Assembly (NCBI GenBank): GCA_031285965.1
Contig: JAITVD010000047.1
Coordinates: 1 to 64,000, forward strand
Source of the DNA: Azoarcus sp.
GTDB lineage: Bacteria; Pseudomonadota; Gammaproteobacteria; Burkholderiales; Rhodocyclaceae
Length of the DNA: 64,000 nucleotides
Reading direction: 5' to 3'
Shown here in pieces: positions 166 to 55,915 of the stretch. Both the position numbers and the translations under genes were made by a program. The notes under the pieces are model-generated. The model ran no database searches and had not been told where the DNA came from. It saw nothing but the letters and a program-made list of their open reading frames with translations. Every line of letters starts with the position of its first letter. Position 1 is the first letter of the stretch.

Positions 166-2103
166 ATGGCTCTCAATTCCGTAAGAACACTAAACTTCAA
201 AGTTTCTCTGTTTTTTATTGTCGTTTCCATTTGCTTGGTTGTCGTTTTAGCGACGATTACCTTTTTTGCCTTTCGCCAGTTTTCCACCGCGACCGCAACA
301 GAGCATCTCCGCACGGCGGCGGAGATCGTCCGGGTTCATCTGACCGAATCAATGATTAACGGTGTCATTGACAAACGCCAGTCTTTCCTGCTGCGTCTCG
401 CCGAAGTCAAAAATCTCAAAACAGCCCATATTATCCGCTCTCCCGTTGTCAACACACAATTTGGCAATAGCCATAAGGGCGAGTATTTTCCAGATGAAAT
501 TGAAAAAAGCGTTTTGAAAAATGGAGAGTCTATATTCAAAGTACTAGAAGATGAAAATGAAATAATATTTCGTGGAACGATTCCCTACATCGCCAATATA
601 GAAGGCACACCCAATTGCCTGCAATGCCACAGCGCAAAACCCGGTGAGGTGCTCGGCGCAATCACGATGACGATGTCCATTACCCAACAGCACCAGAAGA
701 GCATCATCACGGTCATCAGCATCACGGGAATTGTCGCTGCCGCTGTCATCGTGCTGTTTTTCCTGCTCTCCTACCTGCTCAAGCCTATTTCGGATACGGC
801 TCGTGATATTGAGTATTCCGTGCAAAACGCCATTGATGGCAATTTTAGGAGCGAAATCAAAACACAGACGAATGATGAAATCGGGCAGATCGCCAATGAC
901 ATGAATCGGCTGCTCAGGTTCCTTGATGAGGGCTTGAACAAAATAACCAGCTATATCGCCCAATTGGTTGATCGGCAGCAAAACAGGGATGAAAACCAGT
1001 TGCTCGCCGCCATCAATATGGTCAAAAACATGACGCATATTACCCAATACAAATCCGCGATTGAAGAAGATGATTCAAAGCTGGATGTTTACCAGCGGCT
1101 CATTAGGACACTGAGCGTAAAGTTTTTCAATGGCGAGGGCGAATTTTCCATTTTTGAAGTGTCCACCAGTGGACAGGAACTTCACGCAATTCACTTCGGC
1201 GAGGAAAAAAAGACACCCCACCCCTGCCGTTGGTGCAAAGAAAGCATTCTTTCAAACCCGAAAGGCTGCCGTGTTTTCCATACCGCGCACATGATAAACG
1301 GCCTGATTCAGCCCGACATCTGCTACAGCTTCCGGCAAGACGGCCAAGCGCCTGCCTTGCCAGAAGGCAGTGAAACCATCGTGCCGATGGTAGACAAGGA
1401 ACGCCGTTACAACCTGTGCTTCCCCATCCTGAAATCTGGCGTCGTGGGCAGCATCGTGCAGATCATCGTCAAGGAGACGGACAGGGAGCACATCCAAGCC
1501 GCGCTTCCCTACATCAAGGTTTATCTGGCCGACACCGCGCCAGTGCTCGAAGTGCGGCGGCTCATGGAAACCTTGCGGGAGTCCTCGCTGCGCGATGCTA
1601 TGACGGGGCTGAGCAACCGACGTTTCCTGGAGGAATACATTGACACCCTGACCGCCAGCACGCGCCGCAAGCAGACGCATATCTCCATCCTGATGCTCGA
1701 TCTGGATCACTTCAAGATGATTAACGACACCTATGGGCACGACGCGGGCGATTCGATGCTGAAAGCCCTGGCCGATGTCCTCAAGGCGGCGGTACGCACC
1801 TCGGACATCGTCATCCGCTATGGCGGAGAAGAATTCATGATCGTTTTGCAGGACACTTCCAGCGCCTACGCGCTTGGCGTCGCCGAAAAAATCCGCGCCT
1901 CGGTGGAGGCCATGAAAATCCCTTACAGCGGGACGGCCTTGCAAAGGACAATTTCAATCGGCATAGCCGATTTCCCCGGCGACAGCCACACTTTCTGGCA
2001 AGCGGTGAAATTCGCCGACGTTGCCCTCTACCGCGCCAAGGAAACAGGGCGCAACCGGGTCGTGCACTTCACTCATTCCATGTGGCAAGACAACCGATAC
2101 TGA
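166..2103 (+). CDS. membrane sensor diguanylate cyclase with periplasmic c-haem motif
   Basis: Predicted inner-membrane protein of 645 residues that makes c-di-GMP from two GTP. A first membrane helix lies at about residues 14-37. The periplasmic segment ends with a covalent haem-binding CxxCH motif (C151, C154, H155). A second helix at about 180-205 leads into a HAMP-like region. A cytoplasmic region then carries four cysteines (C354, C357, C368, C386) that could bind metal. The C-terminal GGDEF domain has GGEEF at 553-557, with an RxxD inhibitory site (RTSD) five residues before it, so it looks catalytically competent and product-inhibited. GGAG at 156-159 supports the ATG at 166. The haem suggests redox or gas sensing, but the ligand is not known. 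It appears to stand alone; the next gene is convergent. Confidence 0.85.
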   Translation: MALNSVRTLNFKVSLFFIVVSICLVVVLATITFFAFRQFSTATATEHLRTAAEIVRVHLTESMINGVIDKRQSFLLRLAEVKNLKTAHIIRSPVVNTQFGNSHKGEYFPDEIEKSVLKNGESIFKVLEDENEIIFRGTIPYIANIEGTPNCLQCHSAKPGEVLGAITMTMSITQQHQKSIITVISITGIVAAAVIVLFFLLSYLLKPISDTARDIEYSVQNAIDGNFRSEIKTQTNDEIGQIANDMNRLLRFLDEGLNKITSYIAQLVDRQQNRDENQLLAAINMVKNMTHITQYKSAIEEDDSKLDVYQRLIRTLSVKFFNGEGEFSIFEVSTSGQELHAIHFGEEKKTPHPCRWCKESILSNPKGCRVFHTAHMINGLIQPDICYSFRQDGQAPALPEGSETIVPMVDKERRYNLCFPILKSGVVGSIVQIIVKETDREHIQAALPYIKVYLADTAPVLEVRRLMETLRESSLRDAMTGLSNRRFLEEYIDTLTASTRRKQTHISILMLDLDHFKMINDTYGHDAGDSMLKALADVLKAAVRTSDIVIRYGGEEFMIVLQDTSSAYALGVAEKIRASVEAMKIPYSGTALQRTISIGIADFPGDSHTFWQAVKFADVALYRAKETGRNRVVHFTHSMWQDNRY

Positions 2104-9940: not shown

Positions 9941-11146
9941 ATGCGCGTTAGCATCGGTTATAGCGAAAACCCCGACACTTCTACCGCAGGCACACAGGCG
10001 GCGCTCGACGCTTTGAACCATGCTGGGGTGCAGCGCCGTTGCGACATGGTGTTGCTGTTCACCACTTCCCGCCATGATGCCCAGCTATTGCATGACGCGG
10101 TGGCTTCAATCGTCGGACACGAGACACCGATTGTAGGGGGCGGCTCGGTCGGCATCATCACTAAAGACTATTTAGGTTATGCAGGCCATCAGGTCGGCCT
10201 TGCCGTTTTCTGGTTTGAAGGCATCAATTGCCAGATTTTCGCTGAACCCGGCCTCCGGCAAAGCGAAAAGGCAACGGGCGAACGCCTTGGCAAGCGCCTT
10301 GCTGAAATCGGCACTGCCCCGGATTCCTCCGTTCTGCTCTTTTACGATAGCATCGACCGCACTCAGGGCGACCCTAGGCTGCTCATGGCCACCCCCATGC
10401 TCGAAGGCATCGAAAAAGGTCTTGGGTTTCTCCCAAAACTGGTCGGCGCGGGGATGATAGGCGACTATTTTTTCACCCCGATCAAGCAGTGGGTCGGCCA
10501 CGGCTTAGGCGAGCATCAGGCCGTAGCTCTGCTCTTCGATGGCGGCTTGCGCATCGACAGCGCAATCATGCACGGTTGCTATCCTGCCACCGGGTACTAC
10601 ACCGTCACCAAGGCAGAAAAGCAGGTGATATTGGAAATCAATGGACAGCCCGCCCTCAAATTTCTCAAAAGCATCCTTGGTTCCGCCCTGAAGCCGGAAG
10701 AATATGCTTTTTTAATTATTTTAGGCATCAACGAAGGCGAGAAATGGGACGACTTCCACGAGGACAATTACGCTAACCGCCTCGTGCTGTCCGTCGATAA
10801 AGAGCGCGATGGCGTGGTCATGTTCGAGCCGGACATGGTGGAAGGGACCCGTTTCCAAATCATGCACCGAAGCCTGAATCTCGATTACATCCCGCCCAAA
10901 ATTGATGAGCTTTTCGCCAGCCTACAGAACCGGAAACTGGTTTTCGCGCTCTACATCAACTGCTCTGGCCGAGCCGCCGGCATCTCTGGAAAGGATATTG
11001 AGGATGGCTATGTGGTGCAAAACAGCGTCCGTGGCAGAGTGCCGCTGCTGGGAATCTATAGCGGCGTAGAGATTGCTCCGGTAAAAGGGCGGTCACGCGC
11101 ACTCGATTGGACAGGCATTTTTTGCCTATTTAGCGTGCCCGAATGA
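9941..11146 (+). CDS. FIST-domain sensory protein
   Basis: Soluble protein of 401 residues with no signal peptide or membrane helix. The N-terminal half, with the STAGTQAALDAL and PIVGGGSVGIITKDY segments, matches FIST_N. The C-terminal half, including AGISGKDIEDGYVVQNS and PLLGIYSGVEIAP, matches FIST_C. FIST domains are regarded as small-ligand sensors that usually sit in histidine kinase, chemotaxis or cyclase pathways. Here the output is probably the next gene, whose ATG overlaps this stop codon (ATGA at 11143-11146), so the two proteins are likely made in a fixed ratio and act together. GGAG lies just upstream of the start. The ligand is unknown. Confidence 0.8.
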   Translation: MRVSIGYSENPDTSTAGTQAALDALNHAGVQRRCDMVLLFTTSRHDAQLLHDAVASIVGHETPIVGGGSVGIITKDYLGYAGHQVGLAVFWFEGINCQIFAEPGLRQSEKATGERLGKRLAEIGTAPDSSVLLFYDSIDRTQGDPRLLMATPMLEGIEKGLGFLPKLVGAGMIGDYFFTPIKQWVGHGLGEHQAVALLFDGGLRIDSAIMHGCYPATGYYTVTKAEKQVILEINGQPALKFLKSILGSALKPEEYAFLIILGINEGEKWDDFHEDNYANRLVLSVDKERDGVVMFEPDMVEGTRFQIMHRSLNLDYIPPKIDELFASLQNRKLVFALYINCSGRAAGISGKDIEDGYVVQNSVRGRVPLLGIYSGVEIAPVKGRSRALDWTGIFCLFSVPE

Positions 11147-12321
11147 GGAAAACATTGGAACAGGATTCCCAGACAGCCGAAATCGAGGAGCTTCGCCGGG
11201 AACTCGACTACATGCGCCGCTTGACGGAGGGCTGCAACGCCCAGCGGCTAGCCAACGACATCAGAACCATCGCCGTCCGGTACGAACTTGAACAGAAGCG
11301 CAACGGATTCCGCCTGATGGCCGAACTTGCCATCGCCTTCAACAAAAAGACAGACAAGCAGAGCATTTTTAGCTCAATCAGCAAACGGCTCAACTCGTTC
11401 CTCAACATGCAGCGCACCATCGTGCTCCTGCCCGATGGCGTTGGCGTATTCAAGGCCGCCATCCTTCATGGCTATCCTCCAGAAGAACGGGAAGATATGG
11501 AGAAATGCCACATTCCGGTGGACAAAGAGTTGCTTGATCCGCAGCACCCTGTCCTTGTCACCGGCGCCGACCCTGCCACCCGTTTCAAGGCGCTCCGGGA
11601 AACATTGCGCTTACCCTACTTCATCGCCATGCCAGTATTTATCCGCCATGAAGTGGCGGTCTTGCTGATTACCGGGCGTATTCACGAACAGCAGCCATAT
11701 CTGCCGCGCCTGGGCTGGAACGATGTCGAAACGATGCAGACGGTCAGCGCCTACGTAGCGGCCATTCTGGCCAATCAGCGGCTGCACCAGGCAGAGAACC
11801 TGGCCAAGCTCGACCCGCTGACCGAACTTCTCAACTTGCGCGGCATCACTGAACAGTTGCAGCATGTCCTTGCCTTGGCTCGCCAAGACGGTTTCTTTGC
11901 CGCGGTCATGTTTGTCGACCTAGACTGCTTCAAAACGATAAACGACACTCACGGCCATATCGTCGGCGACCTCATATTACAGATCGTCGCCAAGCGGATC
12001 ACTAGCTGCGTCCGCAAATCGGATTTCGTGGGCAGAATCGGCGGCGATGAGTTTGTCATCTTGCTCTCGCATATCAACCAGCCCGCGAACGCCGCTCTGG
12101 TAGCTCAAAAAATCACCGATCTGCTGGGGCTGCAAATCAACGTCCGCAATTCCAGTTGCAAAATAAATGTGAGCGCCAGCATCGGAATCGCCGTTTTCCC
12201 CGACCACGGCAATGATGAGACCGCCCTCATCCACGCAGCCGACAAGGCCATGTACTCCGTCAAGCGCAGCGGAAAAAACGCTTATGCCTTCGCGGAACGA
12301 CCGTTTCCCCTCTCGCCGTAA
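11143..12321 (+). CDS. GAF-GGDEF diguanylate cyclase coupled to FIST protein
   Basis: Cytosolic protein of 392 residues. The first 60 or so residues are heptad-like and charged (probable coiled coil), residues about 65-205 look like a GAF sensor domain, and the C-terminal domain is GGDEF with an exact GGDEF motif at 300-304. RKSD lies five residues before the motif and forms a standard RxxD inhibitory site, so it should synthesise c-di-GMP under product control. It overlaps the FIST gene by four bases. I infer that the FIST protein passes a ligand signal to this cyclase, perhaps through the coiled coil. Confidence 0.85.
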   Translation: MRKTLEQDSQTAEIEELRRELDYMRRLTEGCNAQRLANDIRTIAVRYELEQKRNGFRLMAELAIAFNKKTDKQSIFSSISKRLNSFLNMQRTIVLLPDGVGVFKAAILHGYPPEEREDMEKCHIPVDKELLDPQHPVLVTGADPATRFKALRETLRLPYFIAMPVFIRHEVAVLLITGRIHEQQPYLPRLGWNDVETMQTVSAYVAAILANQRLHQAENLAKLDPLTELLNLRGITEQLQHVLALARQDGFFAAVMFVDLDCFKTINDTHGHIVGDLILQIVAKRITSCVRKSDFVGRIGGDEFVILLSHINQPANAALVAQKITDLLGLQINVRNSSCKINVSASIGIAVFPDHGNDETALIHAADKAMYSVKRSGKNAYAFAERPFPLSP

Positions 12322-44774: not shown

Positions 44775-44837
44775 ACTTCATTATTGCTCCTGAACAAACG
44801 GTTGTTGCTCTGGAATACCGCCCCAGAGCGCCAAATT

Positions 44838-46715
44838 ATGACTATCTCGCGCTTTTTCCGTAATGCCTTTGTCGTAACAAGGTACTGGCTTGCCCGGTAT
44901 CTTGGCGCAGCGGCTTCCGCGCTTTCCGCGCCTGCCGATGCCCCGCAGCAGCCCTCTGAAAATCTTGGGGGCAATAAATCGCGCAATGAAGAAACAGAGT
45001 GCGCGGAAAACTATCTTCTGGCTATTCGCGGCTCAAACGACGGTTTCTGGAATTGGGAGATTTCGGATGATTTCATCTGTTTCTCGCCCCATTTCCACAA
45101 AATGCTCGGTTCTCCGCCCGATACCCCGGCATCCGATACCATGCCGACGGCATTGCTGAAAACACCCTCATCGTTTTTCACTTCACGCCTGCATCCCGAT
45201 GAAGCCGCCATTTTCCGCGCCCGCATAATTGAGCACCTGAAAGGCATCACACCACGGTTCTTTCTTGAGCACCGCATCCGCCATGAGGACGGCAGTTACC
45301 GCTGGATCATGACCCGTGGCCTGGCGCTGCGCGATGGTCAGGGGCGAGCCGTGCGGATGGCGGGTCTCATCAGCGACATCCACCTGAGAAAGTGCGCCGA
45401 GCAGCAACTGCGACACAACGCCACGCACGACAGCCTAACCGATCTGCCCAACCAGCCGCTGTTCATCGAACACTTGCAGCAAGCATTTGCGCGGCGGGCG
45501 GGCGACCCGAACTTTCGTTTTGCGGTGCTGGCGCTCGACCTCGAACGCTTCCATCTCATCAACGACAGCTACAGCCATGCCGTAGGCGACCACTTGCTCC
45601 AGCAAGTCGCCGACCATCTCGGAAGGTCGCTGCGGGGCGGCGACATTCTCGCCCGCTTGAGCGGCGACCAGTTTGTCATCCTGCTGCATGGAATATCTTC
45701 CAATGACGAGGCGCTGAAAACCGCGAGCATCCTGGCGAACCTGCCCGCGTTCATCGTCTTGGGTTCCCAGCAGACCCTGCGAATCGGATGCAGGATTGGC
45801 GTCGCAACGAGCGAAGACGTCAACGATGCCGAAACCCTGCTCCGTAATGCCGACAACGCGCTGCGATCCGCGTGCAGAGGCTCTTCTTCGCCGGTACTGC
45901 TTTTTCAGCCGTCGATGCACGGCAATGCCCTGAGCCAGCTCACGCTGGAAACGGAATTGCGCGACGCTTTGGCAAACGCAAAACTTGATGTTGCCTACCA
46001 GCCGATCATCCGCCTTTTCAATTCCAGCATCGCCAGCCTTGAAGTGCTTGCGCGCTGGCATCACCCCACGCAGGGCTACATTCCGCCCGCCGTATTCATT
46101 CCTTTGGCTGAATCGCTGGATATAGTGCATGAACTCGGCATGTTCGTGCTCAACCGCACCTGCCTCGACATACTGAAGTGGATCGACCAAGTCGGGATTG
46201 ATGCCGTGCGGCCTGTCAGCGTCAACCTTTCGGCACGGCAGCTCACGCGCCCCGACCTTGCGACCGAACTGCTCGATACGATCGCCAGCCACGGACTGAA
46301 ACCCAAACTGCTGCGCTTCGAGGTCACGGAAAGCCTATTTACCCATTCCGACGGCTTAGCCACCGAAATCCTGCAAAAACTGCGCGAAACAGCCGTTGTG
46401 GTGCTAATCGACGATTTCGGAACCGGCTACTCGGCGCTCAGCTACCTGCACACCCTGCCCTGCGACATCCTCAAGCTGGACGGCTCTTTCGTCTCTGGCA
46501 TCACCACCGACTCGCGCCTGCGCGCCATCGTCCGGCACAGCATCGGGCTGGCGCACGACCTCGGCATGACCGTCATTGCGGAAGGCATCGAAAGCAACGC
46601 CCAATCAAACATGCTGCGCTCTGTCGGCTGCGATTTCGGCCAAGGTTTCCTGTTCTCGAAGCCAGTCCCGGCAGACAGCATTTCCGAAAAGCTGGCGACC
46701 CAAGCTAAAGGATAA
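44838..46715 (+). CDS. PAS-GGDEF-EAL protein, probable c-di-GMP phosphodiesterase
   Basis: Protein of 625 residues. A PAS domain (about residues 62-190, IRGSNDGFWNWEISDDF) precedes a GGDEF domain and an EAL domain. The GGDEF motif is changed to SGDQF (275-279), so cyclase activity is unlikely. The EAL domain has E402 in EVLARW, the Asn in SVNLSARQL, DDFGTG (D525, D526), ILKLDGSF and AEGIES, a full set for phosphodiesterase activity. The ATG at 44838 is preferred over a TTG 18 codons earlier. No strong membrane helix is evident. It follows lgt after 63 bases. Confidence 0.85.
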   Translation: MTISRFFRNAFVVTRYWLARYLGAAASALSAPADAPQQPSENLGGNKSRNEETECAENYLLAIRGSNDGFWNWEISDDFICFSPHFHKMLGSPPDTPASDTMPTALLKTPSSFFTSRLHPDEAAIFRARIIEHLKGITPRFFLEHRIRHEDGSYRWIMTRGLALRDGQGRAVRMAGLISDIHLRKCAEQQLRHNATHDSLTDLPNQPLFIEHLQQAFARRAGDPNFRFAVLALDLERFHLINDSYSHAVGDHLLQQVADHLGRSLRGGDILARLSGDQFVILLHGISSNDEALKTASILANLPAFIVLGSQQTLRIGCRIGVATSEDVNDAETLLRNADNALRSACRGSSSPVLLFQPSMHGNALSQLTLETELRDALANAKLDVAYQPIIRLFNSSIASLEVLARWHHPTQGYIPPAVFIPLAESLDIVHELGMFVLNRTCLDILKWIDQVGIDAVRPVSVNLSARQLTRPDLATELLDTIASHGLKPKLLRFEVTESLFTHSDGLATEILQKLRETAVVVLIDDFGTGYSALSYLHTLPCDILKLDGSFVSGITTDSRLRAIVRHSIGLAHDLGMTVIAEGIESNAQSNMLRSVGCDFGQGFLFSKPVPADSISEKLATQAKG

Positions 46716-53229: not shown

Positions 53230-53528
53230 TTAGATGAGTTAAAGCCCACCGACAACAGGTTATGGATAGAACAGTGTCACGTATGAGAACGCTGGCATTG
53301 TGCACGGACAGAACTCGTAGCGCAATAAATTAGACAAAATAGGTAAAACACGGAATTGCAAGCAGGGCTTGCTCAGGTTAAAGCAGCCTCGTCGGCATAG
53401 CAGAATTTCAAAGCGAGTCGCAGTCCAGCCCCCCAACAATTTGACCTCGTCCTTTCACCTCGTGTAGGCTACGCGCCGTTTTGGCTTGCCATGCTGTTTT
53501 GGCGAGCAGAAACAAAAATTTCGCATTC
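53230..53528. other. leader region before the cobalamin riboswitch
   Basis: About 300 bases, A+T-rich on the left, with no supported gene. GCAAGC-AGG-GCTTGC near 53357-53371 is a small 6-bp hairpin. The promoter of the B12 uptake operon must lie here or just right of it, but no clear -35/-10 pair stands out. Confidence 0.35.
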
Positions 53529-53701
53529 TGGTGCTGCTGGTCTCTCGGCCAGCGGTTAAACGGGAAAGCGGTGCGCGTCTTTCTGGGCGCAATGCCGCTG
53601 CTGCCCCCGCAACGGTAAGCGAGTGAGGGTTCGCCTCTAGGCCACTGAGCGTTTTGCTTGGGAAGGCGGCGAATCAAGACTTGCAAGCCCGGATACCGGC
53701 C
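53529..53701 (+). promoter_or_regulatory. cobalamin riboswitch
   Basis: The conserved elements of the adenosylcobalamin riboswitch occur in order: GGTGCTGCTGG, GGTTAAACGGGAAAGCGGTG, the CTGCCCCCGCAACGGTAAG core, GCCACTGAG, GGGAAGGCGGCGAATC and the B12 box around AGCCCGGATACCGGCC. It precedes the TonB receptor gene by about 150 bases. ATCTCC at 53785-53790 can pair with GGAGAT at 53835-53840, the ribosome-binding site, so repression of translation when B12 is bound is plausible (inference). It probably controls the whole five-gene operon. Confidence 0.93.
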
Positions 53702-53848
53702 CGACGCGAACCGATGGACGTGCTGCGGGGCTGCGGCTCGCCGGTTCTCATCACCGACGCGCTGCCATGCAAAGCCCGTGCGGCATCTCCGTTTTTCATC
53801 ATCATGATTCCGGCTGCGGGGACGCAAACCGGATGGAGATAGATTGCC

Positions 53849-55915
53849 ATGCCAACGCGCAAATCCTTGCGGGCAGCCCTGTGCTTGCCTGCCGCCGTTT
53901 TTTCTTTGTATTCCCTGCCCTCTTTTGGCCAAGTTTCGTCCGAGCCGCCCGCAGCGCAACAGGCGCTTGATTCCCTTGATGAAGTGGTGGTGACGGCAAA
54001 CCGCGTACAGGAAGCCAAGCACGAAGTCAGCAGCAACGTTACCGTTATCGGTTCGGAAGAAATCAAGGCGTCGACAGCAACAACAGTCGCCGATTTGATG
54101 GCGCAGCATGGCTTTCATGTCGTAACGATGGGCGACAACAGCAATGTCCAGATACGCGGCATGGGCAGCCTGACGATGGCCAACGAGCTTGAAAACCAAG
54201 TGCTGATCCTGCTGAATGGCCGTCGGATTGGCTTAAGCAACTTGGCGCTTGCGGGGCTGGCGAACGTCAAGCAGGTCGAAATCATCCGTGGCGCTTCAGC
54301 CGTTCAGTACGGTTCCTCCGCGCTGGGCGGGGTCATCAACATCATCACCCGGCGCGGCGAAGCCGATAAACCGTTCCTGTCGATTGAAGCGGGCATCGGC
54401 AGTGATTCGCTGAAGCGCGAAACAGTTGCTTTTGGCGGCGCGGCGGACGGATTTGATTTTTCTTTCGGCGGGACGCATTTCAGCCGCGATGACGTGACGA
54501 CAGAAGGCGGGCGGCGCTGGTACAACACGGCAATCGACAAGAGCCTGACCTACGATTTGGACGTTGGCTACACCTTTGCTCAAAACCACCGCGTCGGAAT
54601 CAACCACGCTCAGGGCGAGACTCAATCTGAACTCACCTCAGGCATCCGCCCCTATGGCGGCAACACGCCCGCCAATCCCTACAGCGATTACCTCAAGCGC
54701 AACAAGAATACGGCGTTTTCCTATGCCGGATCGACGGACAGCAAAAACCTCGACTGGATGGTCAATTATTCTTTCGGAAGCACCGATCAGAAAGATACCG
54801 ACCCATCGACGGGGGCTGAAAGCTACCGGAGCGACATCGACAACAAGGTTTTCAACGCGCAGTTGAACTACAACGCCGCGCTGTTTTCAGTGTCCGGCGG
54901 GGTCGATCAATACCAGTACGACGTGTCCGGGTTCGGCAGCGCCCCGGAAACGACGATGAAAGATACCGGCGCTTATGTCACAGGCAAACTGCGCCTGCTC
55001 GATGAGCGGCTGGTTTTCTCGCTGGGCCTGCGCCACGACCGATACGAGAACTCAGGTACGGCAATGCTTTCCTATGATAACAACCATACGGGCGGCTCGG
55101 TGGGCGTCAGCTATTTGCCGCTCGATTGGCTGAAACTGCGCGCCAATTACGCCAGCGGCTTCAAAATGCCCTCGCCGCAGCAGATCGGCGGGGACGGCGC
55201 GATTTTTTACATGGGCAATCCGTCGCTCAAGCCCGAGCAAAACAAAACATGGGAACTGGGCGCGGATATTGACTGGCGTCACATCAATGCCAGCCTGACC
55301 TATTTTCGTTCAGACTGGCAAGACAAGATCGTTGGCATGCCCACTGGTATCCCATGCAACAATCTTTGGGGGATGAATTGCTACCAAAACCAGAACCTGA
55401 AAGAAGCGGAAATTGCCGGGTTTGAAGGTTCCGTGAGATGGGACATTGGCAAGGCGTTCAGCCAAAGCTACAGCCTCGCGCCCTACGCCAGCTTCACTTG
55501 GCTGACGACGCGAAAAAATAAGGATCCCTCGCAATTCATCGCGTATCACGGCGCGGGCAACACAACTCTGCCCAACACGCCCAAATGGATGGCAAGCTAC
55601 GGCCTCGACTACGCGCATCCGGGGCTGAAAATCAAAAGCCGCCTCAATGCCAATTATTACGGCGCAACGCTGACACGGGACTTTAGCGGGACAGTTCCCA
55701 TGCCAGCGGGCGATACCTATTTCTCGCGCCCAAGCGGCACGGTCGTCAATTGGAGCTTTGAGAAAGAACTGGCAGAGTTCAGCAATCGCCGCTATGGCGC
55801 GCTGACCCTGCGCGGCGAAATCAACAACCTGTTCGACAAGGCAAACGAGATGTACTGGAACTACCCCGGCGCGGGACGGAATTTCTACGTCGGGCTGCGC
55901 TATGACTTTAATTAA
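53849..55915 (+). CDS. btuB: TonB-dependent outer-membrane receptor, probable vitamin B12
   Basis: Receptor of 688 residues. A signal peptide (about 1-26) is followed by the TonB box LDEVVVTA, the plug domain (VADLMAQHGFHV, QVLILLNGRRIG, IIRGASAVQYGSSALGGVINIIT) and the barrel, which ends in the aromatic-rich FYVGLRYDFN. GGATGGAGAT just before the ATG is the ribosome-binding site. A riboswitch that binds cobalamin lies directly upstream and ABC transporter genes follow, so B12 or another corrinoid is the likely substrate. Confidence 0.9.
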   Translation: MPTRKSLRAALCLPAAVFSLYSLPSFGQVSSEPPAAQQALDSLDEVVVTANRVQEAKHEVSSNVTVIGSEEIKASTATTVADLMAQHGFHVVTMGDNSNVQIRGMGSLTMANELENQVLILLNGRRIGLSNLALAGLANVKQVEIIRGASAVQYGSSALGGVINIITRRGEADKPFLSIEAGIGSDSLKRETVAFGGAADGFDFSFGGTHFSRDDVTTEGGRRWYNTAIDKSLTYDLDVGYTFAQNHRVGINHAQGETQSELTSGIRPYGGNTPANPYSDYLKRNKNTAFSYAGSTDSKNLDWMVNYSFGSTDQKDTDPSTGAESYRSDIDNKVFNAQLNYNAALFSVSGGVDQYQYDVSGFGSAPETTMKDTGAYVTGKLRLLDERLVFSLGLRHDRYENSGTAMLSYDNNHTGGSVGVSYLPLDWLKLRANYASGFKMPSPQQIGGDGAIFYMGNPSLKPEQNKTWELGADIDWRHINASLTYFRSDWQDKIVGMPTGIPCNNLWGMNCYQNQNLKEAEIAGFEGSVRWDIGKAFSQSYSLAPYASFTWLTTRKNKDPSQFIAYHGAGNTTLPNTPKWMASYGLDYAHPGLKIKSRLNANYYGATLTRDFSGTVPMPAGDTYFSRPSGTVVNWSFEKELAEFSNRRYGALTLRGEINNLFDKANEMYWNYPGAGRNFYVGLRYDFN

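Follow-up and report, generated by a model that had tools for sequence, protein, structure and literature searches.

Introduction

Can a single membrane-bound enzyme read one cue outside and another inside the inner membrane, and write both into c-di-GMP? The question is raised by a gene near the start of the window, that is, the whole stretch of 64,000 nucleotides of Azoarcus sp. DNA analysed here. The first-pass annotation had described its product as a diguanylate cyclase with a periplasmic c-haem motif and a cytoplasmic four-cysteine module, and had suggested that the protein may sense two cues, redox or metal, at the two faces of the membrane.

The architecture, model folds, conservation and separability reported below support an inner-membrane diguanylate cyclase carrying two separate sensor-like modules. 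The cyclase half is of the standard type. The outer sensor is like an already known kind, described in a 2026 preprint (PMC12889525). The inner four-cysteine GAF domain appears to be the undescribed and unusual part of the protein.

Architecture, topology and catalytic domain

The open reading frame begins with ATG and encodes 645 residues (Table 1). The window opens at the contig start, with 165 bases ahead of the gene, so the upstream context of the cyclase is missing. Positions 1-44 hold, by eye, four direct copies of the 11-base unit TTTTTAGCAAG, which are perhaps the reason why the assembly ended there. Promoter and terminator scans returned signals at chance level only.

Hydropathy profiles with a 19-residue span flagged segments starting at residues 6, 177 and 417. 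The first two are the predicted membrane helices, whose ends near residues 37 and 200 were judged by eye. The third (417-435) was rejected as a further helix; it coincides with a pair of strands in the GAF model described below, which was predicted with confidence. Given helices at starts 6 and 177, the CxxCH motif is placed in the periplasm and all that lies beyond about residue 200, including the cysteine module, in the cytoplasm. Translation and topology thus bear out the annotated positions, namely CxxCH at 151-155 outside the membrane and C354, C357, C368 and C386 inside, ahead of GGEEF. The complete set of cysteines comprises residues 23, 151, 154, 354, 357, 368, 386 and 418.

Behind the second helix lies a HAMP-like segment, for which the window protein reaches 17.9 bits against the PF00672 gathering score of 25. 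Its relatives score 18-31 bits, and the cut-off is passed in two of them, L156 and L158. Among Pfam and NCBIfam families above their cut-offs, the window protein matches only GGDEF (for NCBIfam, among the best 25 of 33 matches listed).

The catalytic domain is unambiguous (168.7 bits against a PF00990 gathering score of 23.8). Both GGEEF and the RxxD inhibition site, positioned five residues ahead of it, are intact, in agreement with the competent domain and I-site that had been annotated. These motifs support a competent-looking diguanylate cyclase.

Table 1. Positions of the cyclase gene and its features in the window
Feature	Position	Strand	Basis or remarks
Diguanylate cyclase gene, 645 aa	166..2103	+	TM - sCache_heme-like - TM - HAMP-like - Cys-GAF - GGDEF
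First transmembrane helix, about aa 12-37	199..276	+	Hydropathy; ends by eye
Periplasmic Cache-type haem sensor domain (predicted), about aa 38-176	277..693	+	AF2, Foldseek, Tll0287 5b82
Met63, proposed distal haem ligand	352..354	+	Met in 121/123 CxxC rows
CxxCH haem c attachment motif (CLQCH), aa 151-155	616..630	+	Sequence, homologue alignment
Second transmembrane helix, about aa 177-200	694..765	+	Hydropathy; end by eye
HAMP-like segment, aa 224-250	835..915	+	Pfam, sub-threshold
GAF-fold module with four invariant Cys, aa 262-470	949..1575	+	AF2 pLDDT 88.6, fold matches
C354, variable fifth Cys	1225..1227	+	110/133
C357, invariant	1234..1236	+	133/133
C368, invariant	1267..1269	+	133/133
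C386, invariant	1321..1323	+	133/133
C418, invariant	1417..1419	+	133/133
GGDEF catalytic domain, aa 475-631	1588..2058	+	Pfam PF00990, E 1.1e-49
I-site RxxD (RTSD), aa 544-547	1795..1806	+	RxxD in 131/131 rows with letters
Active-site GGEEF, aa 553-557	1822..1836	+	GGEEF in 129/131 rows with letters, GGEEI in 2

Homologues and their distribution

The first relatives were collected with residues 1-460 as the query. In the 91 distinct proteins found in this way, C151, C154, C357, C368, C386 and C418 are cysteine throughout, His155 is present in 90 and C354 in 89. Of 297 genomes from the same family, 209 contain relatives. Many of the weaker matches (about 22-30% identity) cover only the first 200-300 residues, and the weaker match in the organism's own genome is a chemoreceptor. 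Strong matches (E below 1e-50) were counted by hand in 83 of the 297.

A scan of public genomes yielded 65 loci, including Azonexus, Dechloromonas, Magnetospirillum, Magnetococcales, Thiocapsa and Thiococcus; purple sulfur bacteria are also among the loci with the cyclase. Azonexus, Dechloromonas, Magnetospirillum, Magnetococcales and the purple sulfur bacteria live along redox gradients. Among 398 genomes sampled across the phylum, 69 matched a profile of the cysteine module, and phage and plasmid records held no relative of the module at E 1e-5. These searches covered cysteine-module cyclases; proteins joining the haem domain to another inner part would mostly escape them.

The joint set comprises 133 proteins, i.e. 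135 minus the weakly aligned outgroup rows L160 and L161. Counts over its rows are no unbiased survey, since the module-profile search favours proteins that keep the module. The two outgroup rows are the weakest profile matches, with another cysteine pattern and a poor alignment (probability 52 for L161). They are GAF-GGDEF proteins with a Cys/His pattern ending in GHYCVP, and may be part of a wider class of Cys/His-bearing GAF domains. The GAF domain of L160 weakly matches GAF-type structures (best E 3.2e-4), and a search with it found no match in the organism's own genome.

The periplasmic haem-type domain

The CxxC pair is present in 123 of the 133 aligned homologues, of which 122 also keep His155. 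The conservation of Met63 is similar (Table 1). One protein, L019, is the sole case of CxxCQ (His155 replaced by Gln), and it has lost Met63 too. L149 is a counter-example, having kept CxxCH with Phe at position 63.

The outer domain was modelled with AF2 on a 38-sequence alignment (A2). The mean pLDDT is 77.5, falling to about 56 near CxxCH, where the model is weak. Against the PDB, Foldseek ranked first the periplasmic sensor of the haem chemoreceptor GSU0935 (3b42, E 2.7e-5), a modest match (TM 0.47/0.54, rmsd 13.6) to a crystal that is a helix-swapped dimer. WalK and CitA follow, and GSU0582 (3b47) stands at rank 8. In a second structure comparison WalK leads (Z 12.6), CitA is at or near the top (Z 11.1), Tll0287 (5b82) is matched over 120 residues at 4.3 A (Z 8.7), and GSU0935 is absent among the best 50 matches listed. 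WalK and CitA are not known to hold haem c. We regard the predicted Cache fold of the outer domain as firm; its closeness to the haem-binding Cache domains is argued from the motif, the Foldseek result and hints from Pfam.

These hints concern PF11845 (Tll0287-like), for which the window protein reaches 14.5 bits and L149 21.5 bits against a gathering score of 24.1. The family is matched weakly by 24 of the 38 members of the outer-domain alignment (best E 0.0074). Because the cut-off is missed, we name the domain sCache_heme-like and do not count it as a member of the Pfam family.

Taken with the Cache model and the Foldseek match to GSU0935, the conserved CxxCH and methionine uphold the periplasmic c-haem-type motif of the first-pass annotation. 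We infer from the motif that one haem c would be attached at CLQCH. From its conservation and its location in the first long helix, Met63 is likely the counterpart of the axial Met60 of GSU0935. The organism's own genome has three matches to cytochrome c assembly-type proteins.

A matching outer domain of the haem type is also found in the chemoreceptor of the organism's own genome (L104, G000:C46:67332-67973). This protein has 544 residues, and its outer domain matches that of the cyclase with a profile E of 2.2e-20. Through the chemoreceptor and the cyclase, one cue may steer both motility and c-di-GMP.

The signal at the haem side

Two kinds of signal have been discussed for related domains. 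The GSU proteins are treated as redox-state sensors (PMC8396549). GSU0935 carries one haem with His144-Met60 ligation, in which Met60 is thought to bind upon reduction; in GSU0582 and GSU0935, NO and CO bind the reduced haem and displace Met60 (PMC8396549). The preprint PMC12889525 proposes that sCache_heme domains fused to signalling modules are NO sensors. Its membrane- and HAMP-linked domain from P. azotoformans shows tight NO binding, with a koff of 6.25e-4 per s, and no stable complex with O2 (PMC12889525).

Both sets of binding data speak for an alternative in which the haem side of the cyclase is an NO sensor and the GAF cysteines are also NO-responsive or merely stabilise the fold. The genomic evidence points the other way. 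In the organism's own genome (97.83% complete), there is no match to the NirS-type family PF02239, the NirK family reaches E 3.9e-6, below its cut-off, and the one haem-copper oxidase match reads by eye as CcoN, not NorB. In the 297 genomes of the family, a strong PF02239 match occurs in 53 of the 83 cyclase genomes (E below 1e-50) and in 140 of the 214 others, with p 0.79, a guide only as the genomes are related. These counts use the 193 strong genomes among 219 with a match, the 26 genomes with weak matches (best E 2.8e-10 to 6e-4) being excluded; PF02239 also takes in NirF- and NirN-like proteins. A link between the cyclase and denitrification was thus tested through PF02239, NirK and the haem-copper oxidase, and was not found. 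Within the window's genus, PF02239 occurs in one of 11 genomes, G265, which is the genome of L019, the protein that has lost the haem ligands; this is a single case.

On balance, we consider the NO alternative conceivable and rather doubtful. NO made by this organism itself is an unlikely signal; NO from outside is a possible one. Lacking support for NirS, NirK or NorB in the own genome and an association with PF02239, we lean to redox or oxygen state as the signal.

The cytoplasmic four-cysteine GAF module

The first-pass annotation had grouped C354, C357, C368 and C386. Three of these are invariant in the 133 homologues. C354 is the weakest of the set, and C418, equally invariant, had been overlooked, so that the set to be considered is C357, C368, C386 and C418. 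C354 is missing in 23 proteins, six of which have a cysteine at position 365. The spacings C357-x10-C368 and C368-x17-C386 are constant, without a single insertion or deletion in the 133 homologues. The distance from C386 to C418 ranges from 11 to 69 residues; it exceeds 19 residues in nine forms, eight of them from the window's genus. Other conserved positions of the module include W356, R369, F389, P420, S424, G425 and Q432.

The stretch between C386 and C418 (window 1321-1419) is a fast-growing insert within the sensor domain. It measures 24 to 69 residues in eight of the 11 proteins of the window's genus (the window protein and L010-L019), 15 residues in the remaining three, and 11-19 residues in 121 of the 122 rows beyond the genus. 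Two further proteins, L152 (G344) and L153 (G317), have three extra cysteines (CADCKESC) in this stretch, and GGEEI replaces GGEEF. These two proteins may pair an additional metal site with a modified cyclase.

Cysteine makes up 1.3% of the homologue proteins, and to judge from the alignment the conservation of the four is not due to chance. The annotation had tied its reading to cysteine conservation among close homologues; the outcome is favourable, with four cysteines invariant over 133 rows. The idea of a vestigial module was rejected on the same invariance.

The fold of the module could be recognised at the structural level. An AF2 model of residues 262-470, built on a 50-sequence alignment (A1), reached pLDDT 88.6 and pTM 0.84. 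Foldseek returned 17 matches with an E of at most 0.001, for the most part GAF domains and phosphodiesterases that carry one; the fold matches include 5w10, 3ci6, 4y2f and the GAF domain of NifA (8jrc), with a best Z of 14.6. At the sequence level, the window member has no match to Pfam GAF or GAF_2 at E 1 and misses their gathering scores. A Pfam scan of 50 module members found no family covering the module, with two weak GAF_2 matches (best E 0.074) and one to GAF (E 0.11). Searching solved structures by sequence alone yielded no useful match for the outer or the inner module.

In the model, C357 and C368 directly precede two short helices, a loop carries C386, and C418 belongs to a long strand. 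This arrangement suggests that the four cysteines sit around the usual GAF ligand place. The pattern of conservation resembles that of a metal site in which four ligands are constant and a fifth cysteine nearby is expendable, and the four cysteines probably hold a metal. The annotated sensor-like cysteine module therefore stands, with strong constraint and with its fold corrected to GAF.

Separability of the two modules and the role of the cysteines

Ten of the 133 rows are without CxxC. One of them, L128, is cut by a contig end and was excluded, which leaves nine truly haem-less proteins. The four cysteines are kept in all nine, as they are in all 123 rows with CxxC. L105 is without the haem domain. 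It is likewise missing from L144, L145 and L146, whose N-terminal membrane part is short, and L156 and L158 carry Pfam sCache_2 in its place. The haem-less L154, L155 and L157 adjoin L156 and L158 in a maximum-likelihood tree built on the cytoplasmic half (53 of 135 rows, midpoint root; four incomplete rows, L128, L085, L091 and L043, were left out). Its topology calls for three changes of the haem label, possibly one gain and two losses.

Since the nine haem-less homologues keep the four cysteines, the Cys-GAF and GGDEF core is constant and the haem optional. The haem-less proteins also led us to reject the view that haem and cysteine module are obligate partners. The cysteine module matters to the cyclase without haem, as its retention in these proteins indicates, an observation that fits sensing and stability equally.

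The role of the cysteines can be conceived in other ways. The four-cysteine site could be structural zinc, or rubredoxin-like iron, that supports the fold and leaves the haem domain as the sole sensor. Four invariant cysteines are compatible with Zn(Cys)4, and the dispensable fifth cysteine, C354, fits such a site as well. Against this stands the retention of the module in the haem-less L105 and L144-L146 and in the sCache_2-bearing L156 and L158, and we consider a purely structural site unlikely.

A cytoplasmic thiol/disulfide switch free of metal would agree with the even number of invariant cysteines. The free methionine-R-sulfoxide reductases 3mmh, 3ksf and 3rfb, GAF-fold enzymes of a group that uses pocket cysteines, are also among the structural matches. 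However, none of the four cysteines is lost in any of the 133 rows and, in our judgement, the fixed C-x10-C-x17-C pattern together with this full retention is more typical of metal ligands; a thiol switch seems improbable. Least probable of all is a GAF pocket that binds a nucleotide, quinone or other small ligand and is lined or closed by the cysteines, since the cyclic-nucleotide GAF domains 5w10 and 3ibj are among the best fold matches but no nucleotide-binding set was recognised among the conserved positions, and the fold does not reveal ligands.

Genomic neighbourhood

The neighbourhood of the cyclase gives no functional lead. In a comparison of 72 loci, whose flanks are often broken by contig ends, no family occurred in more than 15 loci, the cyclase and its antisense shadow frames aside. 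Within the window's genus, a NYN/cold-shock-like gene faces the cyclase in convergent orientation (four loci), with cysS nearby. In Dechloromonas/Azonexus-type loci, an lrgA/cidA-like gene is often found downstream (10 loci). These gene names were assigned by eye.

The window contains further genes of the c-di-GMP type, a GGDEF protein at 11143-12321 and a PAS-GGDEF-EAL protein at 44784-46715. A cobalamin riboswitch (53512-53717, 110.4 bits) directly precedes a TonB-dependent receptor gene (53849-55915).

A proposed model of signal transduction

With slightly better than even confidence, we favour a redox- or gas-sensing diguanylate cyclase with a second, metal-holding GAF sensor beside the catalytic domain. 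Haem loading, the metal, the identity of the signal and the direction of control are what we infer in the following scheme. The periplasmic Cache domain would carry one haem c on CLQCH, with His155 and an exchangeable Met63 as the likely axial ligands. By analogy with GSU0582 and GSU0935, Met63 would be displaced when the haem changes its oxidation state or takes up a diatomic ligand such as NO or CO; the second membrane helix would shift in response, and the movement would be relayed via the HAMP-like coil to the GAF-fold domain. There, the cysteines of C357-x10-C368-x17-C386-x31-C418 would most likely bind a metal centre, for which an Fe-S cluster is slightly favoured over structural zinc. 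The metal state of the GAF domain would then set how the long C-terminal helix presents the two GGDEF domains for c-di-GMP synthesis.

Comparison with known systems and significance

The outer part of the protein resembles the sCache_heme/Tll0287-like sensors, such as GSU0935 and GSU0582 of Geobacter: a periplasmic domain of predicted Cache fold between two transmembrane helices, CxxCH before the last strand and a conserved methionine that may correspond to Met60 of GSU0935. According to PMC12889525, sCache_heme domains occur fused to MCP, kinase, GGDEF and EAL modules; the word GAF is absent from its main text. The window cyclase differs from this kind in falling below the PF11845 cut-off and in placing its GGDEF output behind a Cys-GAF domain.

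A similar combination is that of GSU2622 of Geobacter sulfurreducens, described in PMC8396549 as a single protein in which a haem motif is likewise joined to HAMP, GAF and an enzyme of the c-di-GMP type. By that description, its output is HD-GYP and thus c-di-GMP breakdown. For a cluster in a GAF domain, the kinase CSK/Hik2 (Chloroplast Sensor Kinase) offers a precedent: it senses redox through a [3Fe-4S] cluster in a GAF-domain protein (PMC6949291). It differs in being a histidine kinase with one ligand cysteine identified, and the relevant part of PMC6949291 reports no C-x10-C-x17-C-C set. Control of c-di-GMP synthesis by the state of a cofactor or metal would be shared with DgcO, VcBhr-DGC and DgcZ, whereas these and others rely on protoglobin, hemerythrin or CZB zinc sensors (PMC8846402). 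The text of this 2022 census makes no mention of iron-sulfur or Fe-S. Among the open-licence literature matches listed, none described this architecture or a C-x10-C-x17-C GAF domain in a cyclase.

A bolder reading, which we advance tentatively and would not yet bet on, is a dual-cofactor diguanylate cyclase (haem c plus Fe-S GAF) that gates on combinations of redox states, its four-cysteine GAF domain representing an unnamed family of metal sensors and the constant, perhaps older part of the protein. If this dual-cofactor reading is true, c-di-GMP would be made only when the periplasmic and cytoplasmic redox states combine in particular ways, and a haem Cache, an sCache_2 or no outer sensor at all would have been fitted onto a constant Cys-GAF. 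A redox-active cluster at the GAF cysteines, if present, would bring an Fe-S class into the known set of cofactors that govern c-di-GMP synthesis. The cyclase would then also offer a natural system for testing how periplasmic and cytoplasmic redox are weighed against each other by one enzyme, for which nature supplies the versions: haem with Cys-GAF, Cys-GAF alone, and Cys-GAF with another outer sensor.
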